Source: Arenicellales bacterium (lineage in GTDB: Bacteria; Pseudomonadota; Gammaproteobacteria; Arenicellales; JAANXG01). From it: 35,811 nt of DNA. Made by a program: the position numbers and the translations under genes. Below the pieces are notes generated by a model that did no database searches, was not told where the DNA came from, and saw only the letters and a program-made list of their open reading frames with translations. Location of the stretch: positions 1 through 35,811 of the forward strand of contig JASJAT010000042.1 in assembly GCA_030066885.1 (NCBI GenBank), written 5' to 3'. Of the stretch, positions 9,158 to 24,960 are shown piece after piece. Numbering within the stretch: position 1 is the first letter of the stretch; each line of letters starts with the position of its first letter.

Positions 9158-10363
9158 CTATTGCGAATATTTCCTACCGGCTAGCCTCAAACGCAGAGCG
9201 TTGAGTTTAATAAAACCGTCGGCGTCAGACTGATCATACGCACCTTGGTCATCTTCAAAAGTCACCACGCGTTCGTCAAATAGAGAACTCTCTGATTTAC
9301 GCCCCGTCACCACGACATTCCCTTTGTAGAGCTGTAACCGGACGGTGCCATTTACTGTTTGTTGGGATTTGTCGATCATTTCTTGCAGCATTTTGCGTTC
9401 TGGGCTCCACCAATAACCGTTGTATATCAAATTGGCATACCTAGGCATCAGCTCATCCTTGATATGAGCGACTTCTCTATCGAGAGTGATGGACTCCATT
9501 GCCCGGTGCGCTTTTAACATGATGGTGCCGCCAGGGGTTTCGTAACAACCCCGGTTTTTCATACCCACGTAGCGATTCTCAACTATATCGGCGCGCCCAA
9601 CGCCGTGTCGCCCGCCAGACTGATTCAATGAGTCCAAGACTTGGGCAGGTGTTTGTCTACTTCCGTTGATAGCCACGATATCGCCTCGATCAAACTCGAG
9701 TTCCAATGTTTCGTCTTGATCTGGCGCGTCTTGCGGTGCAACGGTCCATCGCCACATTCCAGGGTTTGGTTCTTGCCAGGGATTCTCAAGTTCACCACCT
9801 TCGTAAGAGATGTGTAACGCGTTTGCATCCATTGAATACGATGCGCTTCCGTCTGCCTTTTTTTCCACTGGGATCCCGTGTCGGTCGGCGTAAGCCACAA
9901 GCTTCTCTCTCGAGCCAAGGCCCCATTGACGCCACGGTGCAATGATTTTGATGTCCGGATTGAGAGCATAGGCCCCGATTTCCAGTCTTACCTGGTCGTT
10001 ACCCTTGCCCGTAGCGCCATGGGCAATGGCGTCTGCCCCGGTCTGCTGCGCGATCTCAACCAGCCGTTTAGCTATTAGCGGTCGGGCGATAGAGGTACCT
10101 AGCAAATACTCACCTTCGTAGACTGTATTGGCACGGAACATTGGAAAAACAAAATCCCTTACGAACTCCTCTCTGAGGTCCTCTATGAATATTTCCTTCA
10201 CCCCGAGGTTTCGTGCCTTCTCACGAGCAGGCTCTAGTTCCTCCCTCTGCCCGATATCAGCGGTAAATGTAACTACTTCACAGCTGTATTCTTCCTGCAA
10301 CCATTTGAGAATTACCGAGGTGTCCAGCCCACCGGAATACGCGAGTACGACTTTGTTGACCAT
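9158..10363 (-). CDS. argG: Argininosuccinate synthase
   Basis: ArgG joins citrulline and aspartate with ATP to give argininosuccinate, the penultimate step of arginine synthesis. The N-type ATP-pyrophosphatase loop AYSGGLDTS is at residues 8-16 of the chosen start. [12 protein letters not shown] follows near 115 and [14 protein letters not shown] further on. The open frame runs 38 codons further upstream (to 10477), but family members begin just before KVVLAYSGG. The ATG at 10361-10363 gives a normal 401-residue protein, so it is taken as the start even though no clear ribosome site precedes it. The gene is transcribed away from the small membrane-protein unit at 10499. argH is not in the window; argD lies 1 kb away on the other strand. 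Confidence 0.95.
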
Positions 10364-10435
10364 GACTTTATTGAGTGAACTTAAACAGTCGATATCTTCT
10401 TTTGTTTGAGATAAAGACACAAGCTTAAGTTTTGC

Positions 10436-10463
10436 TTGAAATCCTGGTGTGGGTTGGCATAGT
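10436..10463 (+). promoter_or_regulatory. Possible sigma-70 promoter for the small membrane-protein unit
   Basis: TTGAAA (10436-10441) resembles a -35 box in five of six positions. It is followed after 16 bp by CATAGT (10458-10463), a -10 match in four of six positions. The distance to the ATG at 10499 leaves a short leader. This is a visual match only; the -10 could also be read as TAGTCT with an 18-bp spacer. Confidence 0.35.
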
Positions 10464-10498
10464 CTAGCGCACCACATGAACGGCGCGGGAGAGCAAAC

Positions 10499-10594
10499 AT
10501 GAAAAATCCACTTGATTCCATCCCTGGCACGATTGTGGCGGGCGTGGTACTTACGCTTGTCCTTTATGTATTTGTTAGTGGCTTTCTAGTGTAG
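10499..10594 (+). CDS. 31-residue single-helix membrane protein
   Basis: A short open frame starts with ATG at 10499 behind a good ribosome site, GGGAGAG, spaced 5 bp. It encodes 31 residues: a short polar N-terminus [10 protein letters not shown], then about 20 hydrophobic residues ([15 protein letters not shown]...), ending ...GFLV. It should form one membrane helix. It stops 19 bp before the next gene, whose ribosome site (GGGAGA) is nearly the same, so the two are probably co-translated. The composition and size recall the tiny accessory subunits of respiratory membrane complexes, but no family is recognised. A nine-codon frame (10476-10502) overlaps its start and is probably chance. Confidence 0.62.
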
Positions 10595-10613
10595 GTGTTG
10601 CGGGAGAATAGTT

Positions 10614-11135
10614 ATGGATCCTTTGTTTTTAGCGATAGAGCGATGGTTGCATGTGTTGGCCGGTATTACTTGGATCGGCTTACTCTATTATTTTAATTTC
10701 GTTCAAGTCCCGGGTCTCGGTAAAGCCAAAGCGGATGGAACGGCAGCGGGTATAACTAAACACATTGCCCCGCTGGCACTTCTTTGGTTCCGCTGGGCTG
10801 CATTAGCAACTTGGATAACGGGAGCGATTTATTTAATGGCTGGCCACGGTACTGCTGAGATGAACGGCTTCGCTCGTGCATTCTTGTTGCAGGATTCTGC
10901 GGCCCCGATTGGCATGGGAGCGTGGCTGGGCACAATAATGCTGTTTAACGTGTGGGTTTTGATCTGGCCCAATCAAAAAAAGGTTTTGGGTTTAGTTGAA
11001 GCTAGTGATGAAGAGAAAGCCAAAAGCGCGCGGGTTGCCCTACTGGCGTCACGGACGAATACGATGTTGTCCATACCGATGTTGTTCTTCATGGTAACTG
11101 GGAGCCCAGCACATTCGGTGCTCTACTTAGGCTAA
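10614..11135 (+). CDS. Urate_ox_N/PuuD-like four-helix membrane protein
   Basis: This 173-residue membrane protein resembles the N-terminal membrane domain of PuuD-type urate hydroxylase (Urate_ox_N). It lacks the rest of that enzyme and the cytochrome c domain. The N-terminus has ERWLHVLAGITWIGLLYYF with a conserved-looking histidine (H13). Further helices are around 50-77 (TKHIAPLALLWFRWAALATWITG), 100-122 (MGAWLGTIMLFNVWVLIWPN) and 150-166. Paired His/Arg/Trp near helix ends would suit haem binding, but this is inference. Urate oxidation is not implied. Short proteins of this type are often mislabelled in databases. It follows the 31-residue protein gene by 19 bp with a GGGAGA site 6 bp from the ATG, so they form one unit. 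Confidence 0.72.
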   Translation: MDPLFLAIERWLHVLAGITWIGLLYYFNFVQVPGLGKAKADGTAAGITKHIAPLALLWFRWAALATWITGAIYLMAGHGTAEMNGFARAFLLQDSAAPIGMGAWLGTIMLFNVWVLIWPNQKKVLGLVEASDEEKAKSARVALLASRTNTMLSIPMLFFMVTGSPAHSVLYLG

Positions 11136-11172: not shown

Positions 11173-11300
11173 AAACCGGGGACAGTATACCTTTTAACGT
11201 TGAGTAAGCTGTAGGAACGGAGACTTCGCTGCGATTCGCTCGGAGCGAGGTTGCGCCTCCTACAATGAATCTACCTTAAAAAGTACACTGTCCCCGGTTT
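11173..11300. repeat. MITE-like element with 25-bp terminal inverted repeats, copy A
   Basis: The left end AAACCGGGGACAGTATACC... (11173-11197) and the reverse complement of the right end (11276-11300) agree in 23 of 25 positions. The element is 128 bp, has no open frame, and contains a REP-like core at 11210-11264. A second copy with near-identical ends lies at 24834-24960. It ends only 4 bp before the ATG at 11305 of argD. Ends of the GGGGACAGTATAC kind remind me of sequences mobilised by REP-associated tyrosine transposases, but no transposase gene is in the window. Confidence 0.8.
11210..11264. repeat. REP-like palindrome nested in copy A
   Basis: TGTAGGAACGGAGACTTCGC opens and GCGCCTCCTACA closes this 55-bp imperfect palindrome; outer arms TGTAGGA.../...TCCTACA pair exactly except at one inner position. 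It matches the layout of the 54-bp repeat at 29004-29057 and of the well-known TGTAGGAGCG-type REP sequences of Pseudomonas. Here it sits inside the terminal inverted repeats of a different element. Confidence 0.68.
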
Positions 11301-11304
11301 AATA

Positions 11305-12495
11305 ATGTCCTTGGCTAAGGAAATGGAAGACAACCACCTGATGCAAACATACAAACGTTTACCGCTAAGCTTCGTGCGTGGTGAAGGTGCTTGGTTATGG
11401 GACGACCAAGGAGTGAAATATCTTGATGCCCTGGGCGGTATTGCGGTTGCAGTCCTCGGGCATAGTCACCCCACGGTAGCAGATGCCTTGGCAGATCAAG
11501 CCCGTACCTTGATTCACACTTCTAACTTATATCGTATCCCAATGCAGGAAGAGCTGGGTAGAAAGCTCTGTGAGCTGAGTGGCATGTCTAGAGCGTTCTT
11601 TTGTAACTCTGGAGCAGAAGCCAACGAAGCGGCGATTAAGATTACCCGAAAATACGGTCACCAAAACGACATACGAAATCCCACTGTGTTGGTTACGGAA
11701 GGCAGTTTTCACGGCCGTACGATGGCAACGTTGACAGCAACGGGAAACCCCAAAGTCCAATTGGGGTTTGAACCCTTGGTCCCCGGTTTCAAGCGAGTAC
11801 CGTTTAACGACATAGATGCAGTACAACAAGTAGCCGACGATGACCCCGGTATCGTTGCAGTTATGGTAGAACCCATACAGGGTGAAGGTGGCATAAATAT
11901 TCCCGATGCCGGTTACCTGTCGAATTTACGCGAGACTTGTGATCGTAATGGCTGGCTGCTTGTGGTAGATGAAATTCAAACGGGCATGGGCAGGACCGGG
12001 AATTGGTTTGCGTATCAGCAAGAGTCAGTGGAACCGGATGTGGTCACGCTGGCCAAAGCTTTGGGCAATGGTATTCCCATCGGGGCCTGCCTAGCACGGG
12101 GTGTGGCCAGTGAGATTCTTACCGCGGGAAGCCATGGGACAACTTTCGGCGGCAATCCCTTCGCCTGCCGGGCAGCGTTGACAGTGATCGAGGAGATAGA
12201 GCGAAGCGATTTGGTTCGAAGAGCCAGTGAACTCGGTCAGCGCGTATTAACCCAACTGAGCAAACAGTTAGAGAAAGAGCAAAGAATTAAATCGATACGG
12301 GGCCAGGGATTGATGATCGCCTTGGAGTTTGAGCAGCCTTGTACAGAGCTTGTGTCTATCTGTCTCGACCAAGGTGTATTGATTAACGTCACCGCAGAGA
12401 ATGTTGTTCGGCTATTGCCGCCACTAATCTTAAGCGACGATGAAGCGGATTTTTTGGTAGACCGTCTGGTAGACGCGATCAAGCTCTACAAATAA
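11305..12495 (+). CDS. argD: Acetylornithine aminotransferase
   Basis: ArgD is a class III pyridoxal-phosphate aminotransferase that makes N-acetylornithine in arginine synthesis and often also acts in lysine synthesis. The 396-residue protein has FCNSGAEANEAAIKITRKY (cofactor phosphate contact), GSFHGRTMATL, LVVDEIQTGMGRTG and the cofactor lysine in TLAKALGNGIPIGA. The start is uncertain. ATG 11305 lies 4 bp after a repeat element and has no ribosome site. In-frame ATGs at 11323 and 11341 would give ends (MEDNHLMQTY or MQTYKRLP) closer to the family norm. It is separated from argG, on the other strand, by the small membrane-protein unit. No ArgR box was recognised. Confidence 0.93.
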   Translation: MSLAKEMEDNHLMQTYKRLPLSFVRGEGAWLWDDQGVKYLDALGGIAVAVLGHSHPTVADALADQARTLIHTSNLYRIPMQEELGRKLCELSGMSRAFFCNSGAEANEAAIKITRKYGHQNDIRNPTVLVTEGSFHGRTMATLTATGNPKVQLGFEPLVPGFKRVPFNDIDAVQQVADDDPGIVAVMVEPIQGEGGINIPDAGYLSNLRETCDRNGWLLVVDEIQTGMGRTGNWFAYQQESVEPDVVTLAKALGNGIPIGACLARGVASEILTAGSHGTTFGGNPFACRAALTVIEEIERSDLVRRASELGQRVLTQLSKQLEKEQRIKSIRGQGLMIALEFEQPCTELVSICLDQGVLINVTAENVVRLLPPLILSDDEADFLVDRLVDAIKLYK

Positions 12496-24834: not shown

Positions 24835-24960
24835 ACCGGGGACAATATACTTTTTAACTTAGTTAATGAACCTCAGGAACAGGGCGGTGTCGCCTCATTT
24901 CGATCGGTACAAAGGCGCGCCTCGTATGTTTTAAAGTTAAAAAGTATACTGTCCCCGGTT
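24834..24960. repeat. MITE-like element with 25-bp terminal inverted repeats, copy B
   Basis: The left end AACCGGGGACAATATACTTT... (24834-24858) matches the reverse complement of the right end (24936-24960) in 24 of 25 positions. The ends are nearly the same as those of copy A at 11173-11300. The inside holds a degenerate form of the REP-like core (AGGAAC...GCGCCTC). The element fills the whole gap between two convergent genes. Its left end overlaps the last base of the ggt stop codon, and its right end overlaps two bases of the dynamin-like gene's stop codon. A long stem of this kind could end transcription from both sides. Confidence 0.82.

Follow-up and report, generated by a model that had tools for sequence, protein, structure and literature searches.

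A conserved 31-codon gene that probably encodes a detached transmembrane helix of its short Urate_ox_N neighbour

PuuD is a membrane urate oxidase with a cytochrome c (COG3748), and the parts of the account by Doniselli et al. 2015 (PMC4562309) drawn on here also describe short DUF989 proteins, four-helix variants whose role is unknown. A different known case is subunit IIa of the ba3 (B-type) cytochrome oxidases, an often unannotated one-helix peptide of 34-41 residues; according to the excerpts of PMC3128077 used here, its gene lies just upstream of that of subunit II, the peptide replaces a helix that other oxidases hold within subunit II, and it is missing where subunit II holds both helices. 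The same excerpts mention cytochrome b6 and subunit IV as a split membrane protein.

The window analysed here, a stretch of 35,811 nucleotides from an Arenicellales bacterium, contains a very small ORF directly ahead of a short Urate_ox_N gene, and the pair is flanked by arginine genes:

10487..10492, + strand: GGGAGA, ribosome-binding site for the small ORF, 6 nt 5' of its ATG (basis: sequence)
10499..10594, + strand: 31-codon gene of a one-helix membrane peptide, ATG to TAG, kept in relatives and without a Pfam family
10602..10607, + strand: GGGAGA, ribosome-binding site for the larger gene, 6 nt 5' of its ATG (basis: sequence)
10614..11135, + strand: short Urate_ox_N (former DUF989) protein of 173 aa with a four-helix core (PF06181, 74.4 bits)
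11305..12495, + strand: argD, acetylornithine transaminase, the conserved downstream neighbour (TIGR00707, 481.7 bits)
9158..10477, - strand: argG, argininosuccinate synthase, the divergent upstream neighbour (NF001770, 628.6 bits; coordinates of the ORF as listed, with similarity starting near residue 39)

The preliminary description of this DNA had reported nearly identical ribosome sites and close spacing for the two ORFs; in the sequence GGGAGA indeed stands 6 nt before each ATG and the gap from the small to the larger ORF is 19 nt. The most hydrophobic 19 residues of the peptide average 2.56 on the Kyte-Doolittle scale, and a Pfam search with four of the peptides gave no match at E up to 10.

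The larger protein resembles PuuD in having a Urate_ox_N domain, scored well above the Pfam cut-off of 26.9 bits, though the match stops short of the full profile, and no curated NCBIfam model scored above its cut-off. The window protein has no match to the HemJ family (PF03653); Urate_ox_N alone was found. Unlike PuuD, with its eight-helix domain of ~300 aa, the window protein has neither helices III and IV nor a cytochrome c: as the preliminary description had it, the C-terminal cytochrome domain is missing, and there is no CXXCH in the 173 residues. The purine-degradation context of PuuD is also missing, the gene being flanked by argG and argD instead. The protein matches Urate_ox_N in part, has a core of helices I, II, V and VI and lacks a cytochrome, and so is of the short DUF989 kind. 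The passages of PMC4562309 cited here mention no fifth helix for such proteins, whereas in our material a fifth helix is found as a separate ORF, as an N-terminal fusion or, according to a profile match, as a C-terminal helix of longer homologues, called class C below. The latter also resemble PuuD, as they align to its helices I, II, V and VI (hhalign E 4.7e-22); the peptide itself gave no match of note to the PuuD helices. Like subunit IIa, it is encoded directly upstream and replaces a helix of longer homologues, which we treat as a working likeness and not as homology; unlike subunit IIa, it matches neither that Pfam family nor any other, shows detectable sequence homology to the helix it replaces, and in one clade seems to have its counterpart at the other terminus of the protein. 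As with cytochrome b6 and subunit IV, one membrane protein appears divided over two genes, but here a single helix of 25-36 residues is freed and one clade is seemingly permuted.

The small frame is not a chance ORF: 79 of the 80 named relatives have it with the same reading frame, motif and position, and its codons are under purifying selection. These relatives of the larger protein came from a one-genome-per-species scan and are the best 80 of at least 587 (among at least 599 matched stretches); within this best 80, the peptide profile finds the peptide at all loci except L121, where masked bases stand at the expected place. The small ORF is separate and upstream at 53 of these loci and fused in frame to the N-terminus at 26, and record titles name Thiobacillus, Methylophilaceae, Gallionella, Sulfuricaulis, Thiogranum, Povalibacter and Arenicellales among the hosts. 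The pairing with a short Urate_ox_N gene, noted in the preliminary description, is confirmed at these loci. Separate small ORFs start with ATG in 80 of 82 cases and have an SD-like 4-mer ahead in 74 of 82. The codon-level conservation that had been named as a check was also found: over 24 disjoint pairs of equal length, without the L087 peptide with its altered motif, pN/pS is 0.17, a value somewhat biased to conservation since the peptides were picked by protein similarity. Changes are mainly synonymous (239.8 differences at 562.5 synonymous sites, 114.2 at 1552.5 nonsynonymous sites), and the peptide genes of L006 and L007 differ by ten synonymous substitutions and no nonsynonymous one. By sequence comparison the 31-codon ORF is a real, conserved gene. 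One gene of ~30 codons has gone unlisted in a public record: in L259 a 34-aa helix ORF (2859-2963) lies between pqqE and a gene annotated 'urate hydroxylase PuuD', and the record, whose gene table is said to be incomplete, lists no feature there. A full-text literature search found no paper on the peptide.

Where the helix occurs was followed over wider samples. Among 100 relatives, 89 had Urate_ox_N matches in a protein search, and the peptide profile, searched in all six frames, matched at 37 places, spread over 36 genomes. All but one of these places lie just upstream of, or inside the N-terminus of, short Urate_ox_N genes; the 37th (G057) falls on the C-terminus of a class C protein. The same relatives hold 38 short Urate_ox_N genes with E below 1e-50, of which two lack a peptide match (G027 and G056), their N-terminal helix having diverged (L034, L035). 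The small gene is 25-36 codons long across relatives. In a class-wide draw 63 of 187 genomes had a match, giving 63 loci (a 64th match place, G021, is the class C locus L051): 23 are separate, 26 fused, 8 C-terminal and 6 unassigned, and at none of the 63 does a small-ORF or N-terminal helix stand together with a C-terminal one. Proteins without an upstream or N-terminal helix usually have a similar helix as the last one at the C-terminus. The unassigned six comprise L245, fused by eye; L250, an intact exception; and four broken or cut loci, namely L249 at a contig end, L252 with an internal stop, and the fragments L257 and L258. These two fragments (G145, G254) are 81-residue frames that correspond to the last third of the protein only, with ~81% identity to the window, and we regard them as decayed or cut copies. 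In a phylum-wide draw, of which 30 of 58 matches were examined, short proteins of alphaproteobacterial grade mostly have an N-terminal hydrophobic helix, in many cases one that the peptide profile does not reach. Against the reading of the peptide as a detached helix, neither the intact L250 nor L260, a plasmid copy, has a helix of this kind close by, and peptide searches of G149 and of the L260 plasmid gave no matches.

Class C proteins are ~205-218 aa long, lack the upstream peptide and have two extra C-terminal helices. When the peptide profile was run on a set of 32 of them (one cut at a contig end) together with 892 other ORFs, the class C matches fell on the last helix, in register, the best reaching 17.1 bits and E 1.5e-4. 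Three decoy ORFs at 33-44 bits are the peptide itself read within longer frames, as judged by locus and sequence, and the best decoy left after those three scores 4.1 bits. Profile-profile comparison of the peptide with class C gave E 7.9e-6 and a probability of 84% over 26 columns, with the next place at 0.12, and both helices have in common the motif P-L-x-S-I/V-x-G-x-I-x-S. Against these figures it should be said that for 8 to 10 of these 32 proteins the peptide profile gives no clear match, that the peptide and the class C helix share only about one quarter of residues, and that lone helices are short, low-information sequences. Genomic position points in the same direction as the profiles: in family f10, thirteen class C genes (13 genomes) lie between argG and argD or argF, in the very slot that holds the split pair in the window and its relatives, and a further member of this family, G054, has the split pair in that slot. 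In three genomes of the window's own genus (G001-G003) the split pair accompanies the arginine genes while a class C gene lies at another place, and because the genus carries both, the split and C-terminal forms are perhaps not fully equivalent. By charge, the long loops are cytoplasmic, as reported for PuuD, and therefore an N-terminal helix placed before helix 1 would cross the membrane outwards, as would a sixth helix following helix 5; transfer of the helix between the ends would preserve topology.

Two trees of the four-helix core, made by a quick method with SH-aLRT support only and one of them on a random subset of Gammaproteobacteria rows, place class C in a single clade (SH-aLRT 95 in one tree and 99 in the second). 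Separate and fused states interleave, and the fused state needs 11 changes, at least two of them forced by starred branches, with L034, L035 and L245 scored as fused by eye where the profile failed or was weak. The root hangs on distant PuuD rows, and the program gave a long-branch warning. The C-terminal form would apparently be a permuted protein in one clade. The protein set A2 numbers 71 and consists of 24 fused proteins, the window and 46 of 52 separate ones; L150 (no ATG, contig edge), the masked L115 and L121 and at least one protein without ATG near the start were left out.

From this analysis we consider it probable that the product of the 31-codon ORF is a transmembrane helix detached from its short Urate_ox_N neighbour, and that both products assemble as one five-helix membrane unit. 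The peptide would take in trans the docking site that the fused helix occupies in cis, and its N-terminus would be cytoplasmic. The binding itself is judged very likely from the sequences, because natural fusions occur at 26 of the 80 named loci (the best 80 of at least 587). In this respect the earlier suggestion of a two-protein complex stands, but not in the form of a small subunit added to a finished protein; the comparison then made with the small subunits of haem-containing membrane complexes had to be given up, since by homology the peptide would be a helix of the protein itself, N-terminal in fused relatives and apparently C-terminal in another clade. A widespread family whose short members are known as four-helix proteins would thereby gain one missing part, and the larger gene expressed alone would probably yield an incomplete protein. 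The separate, fused-in-front and C-terminal forms may offer a natural series for studying membrane assembly from detached helices and permutability.

The main competitor, which we hold to be unlikely, makes the peptide a single-helix subunit with an accessory or regulatory task that binds the four-helix protein, and ascribes the resemblance to the class C helix to convergence of membrane helices. It may be argued from the shortness of the similarity (26 aligned columns at that 84% probability), from L250 and L260, which do without the peptide, and from the coexistence of the separate form with class C in G001-G003. Convergence does not readily account for the common register and motif or for the mutual exclusivity of both helix locations; moreover, no remaining decoy scores close, and the whole-genome peptide search reached the C-terminal helix unprompted.

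Regarding the function of the detached-helix unit, our proposal is less confident. All 204 of the S/F/C (separate, fused, C-terminal) cores have H13, and 201 of the 204 also have a histidine close to where helix 4 ends, H167 in the window protein; its absence from the remaining three speaks against a haem pair. Residue conservation was computed over 208 core sequences, and PuuD rows have similar histidines in the alignment. The two histidines would lie on one membrane face, the side being derived from charge and PuuD topology. A model of the natural fusion L126 has five helices (mean pLDDT 93.3, pTM 0.86) with the N-terminal one at residues 7-25. No solved structures related by sequence were found. 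As regards a cytochrome b or STEAP fold, Foldseek gave a best E of 0.51 and nothing under 0.5, and VIA-align gave Z up to 12.8, which is within the ordinary range of helical bundles. Its top rows are designed bundles, cytochrome b6f and haem-binding designs, and its matches also include many unrelated bundles of mixed function. We propose that the larger protein may bind a bis-histidine haem b, with which the two histidines and the modelled four-helix bundle are compatible. The unit could then be a small redox protein built on PuuD core helices I, II, V and VI. Its candidate haem b ligands would be H13, where helix 1 begins, and H167, where helix 4 ends, both on the predicted periplasmic side, and it might pass electrons to or from some partner.

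Another suggestion about function, that the short Urate_ox_N protein is a protoporphyrinogen oxidase standing in for HemJ, appears very improbable to us from searches for HemJ and HemG. Helix 1 looks alike in HemJ and Urate_ox_N, in a weak and short alignment, and some genus g3 relatives hold the gene and have no HemJ or HemG matches; yet 51 of 60 relatives, like the genome of the window itself, encode HemJ (PF03653), in G005 the short protein is missing along with both HemJ and HemG, and the profile comparison gave E 0.09 over 18 columns. HemG-type flavodoxin was found in 3 of the 60. We give even less credence to the idea that the small ORF serves as a leader or for translational coupling and that its peptide does nothing by itself, as its place close ahead of the larger gene and its own ribosome site could suggest, for the amino-acid sequence is conserved, in-frame fusions occur across many lineages, and the distance to the larger gene varies. 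That a fused gene only looks split through an assembly error or frameshift, conceivable since fused relatives are known, is hardly credible, as it is contradicted by many independent assemblies: at 53 of the 80 named loci (best 80 of at least 587) a stop codon, a spacer and a start codon separate the small frame from the larger gene, including the isolates or complete records of Thiobacillus denitrificans RG, beta proteobacterium KB13 and LSUCC0401.

The gene context offers testable leads to function. Of the 48 class-wide separate or fused loci for which 0.7 kb or more is available downstream, 35 have argD or argF, named via NCBIfam, no more than 1.5 kb behind them on the same strand (separate 18/22, fused 17/26); none of the 8 class-wide class C loci does. 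Four deep relatives (L259-L262) have instead the order pqqA-pqqD-pqqE-[Urate_ox_N]-serC-DHODH-like, where the peptide is present in L259, L261 and, weakly, L262 and is absent from L260. An aminotransferase gene lies downstream in both the arginine and the PQQ-type settings. It would be tempting to see here a minimal haem-dependent membrane oxidase on the PuuD core, with an essential, widespread and largely unannotated helix of 25-36 codons that has moved between front, back and own gene (a circular permutation via the detached state), an oxidase acting on a small metabolite linked to arginine synthesis in most of its gammaproteobacterial hosts and, in a deep branch, recruited to maturation of a PQQ-type peptide cofactor; taken as a whole, this picture is speculative and we doubt that all of it will hold.

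Several minor observations may be added. The cluster in L259 (1322-4567, NZ_CP029178.1), L260 (NZ_CP073765.1), L261 and L262 is a conserved second PQQ-like cluster, which includes a serC-like transaminase and a truncated quinone-type DHODH-like protein and whose product may be related to PQQ; standard pqqB and pqqC adjoin it on the other strand in L262. The window has two copies (11173-11300 and 24836-24958) of an element with inverted ends CCGGGGACAGTRTACC, whose arms in the first copy are 31 nt long and 87% complementary; this copy sits between the short Urate_ox_N gene and argD, and the element looks like a small mobile repeat. In some relatives of family f8 (L032, L067, L071) the gene is found near coxA, coxB and a cyoE/ctaB-like gene, these names being judged by eye from the sequences.
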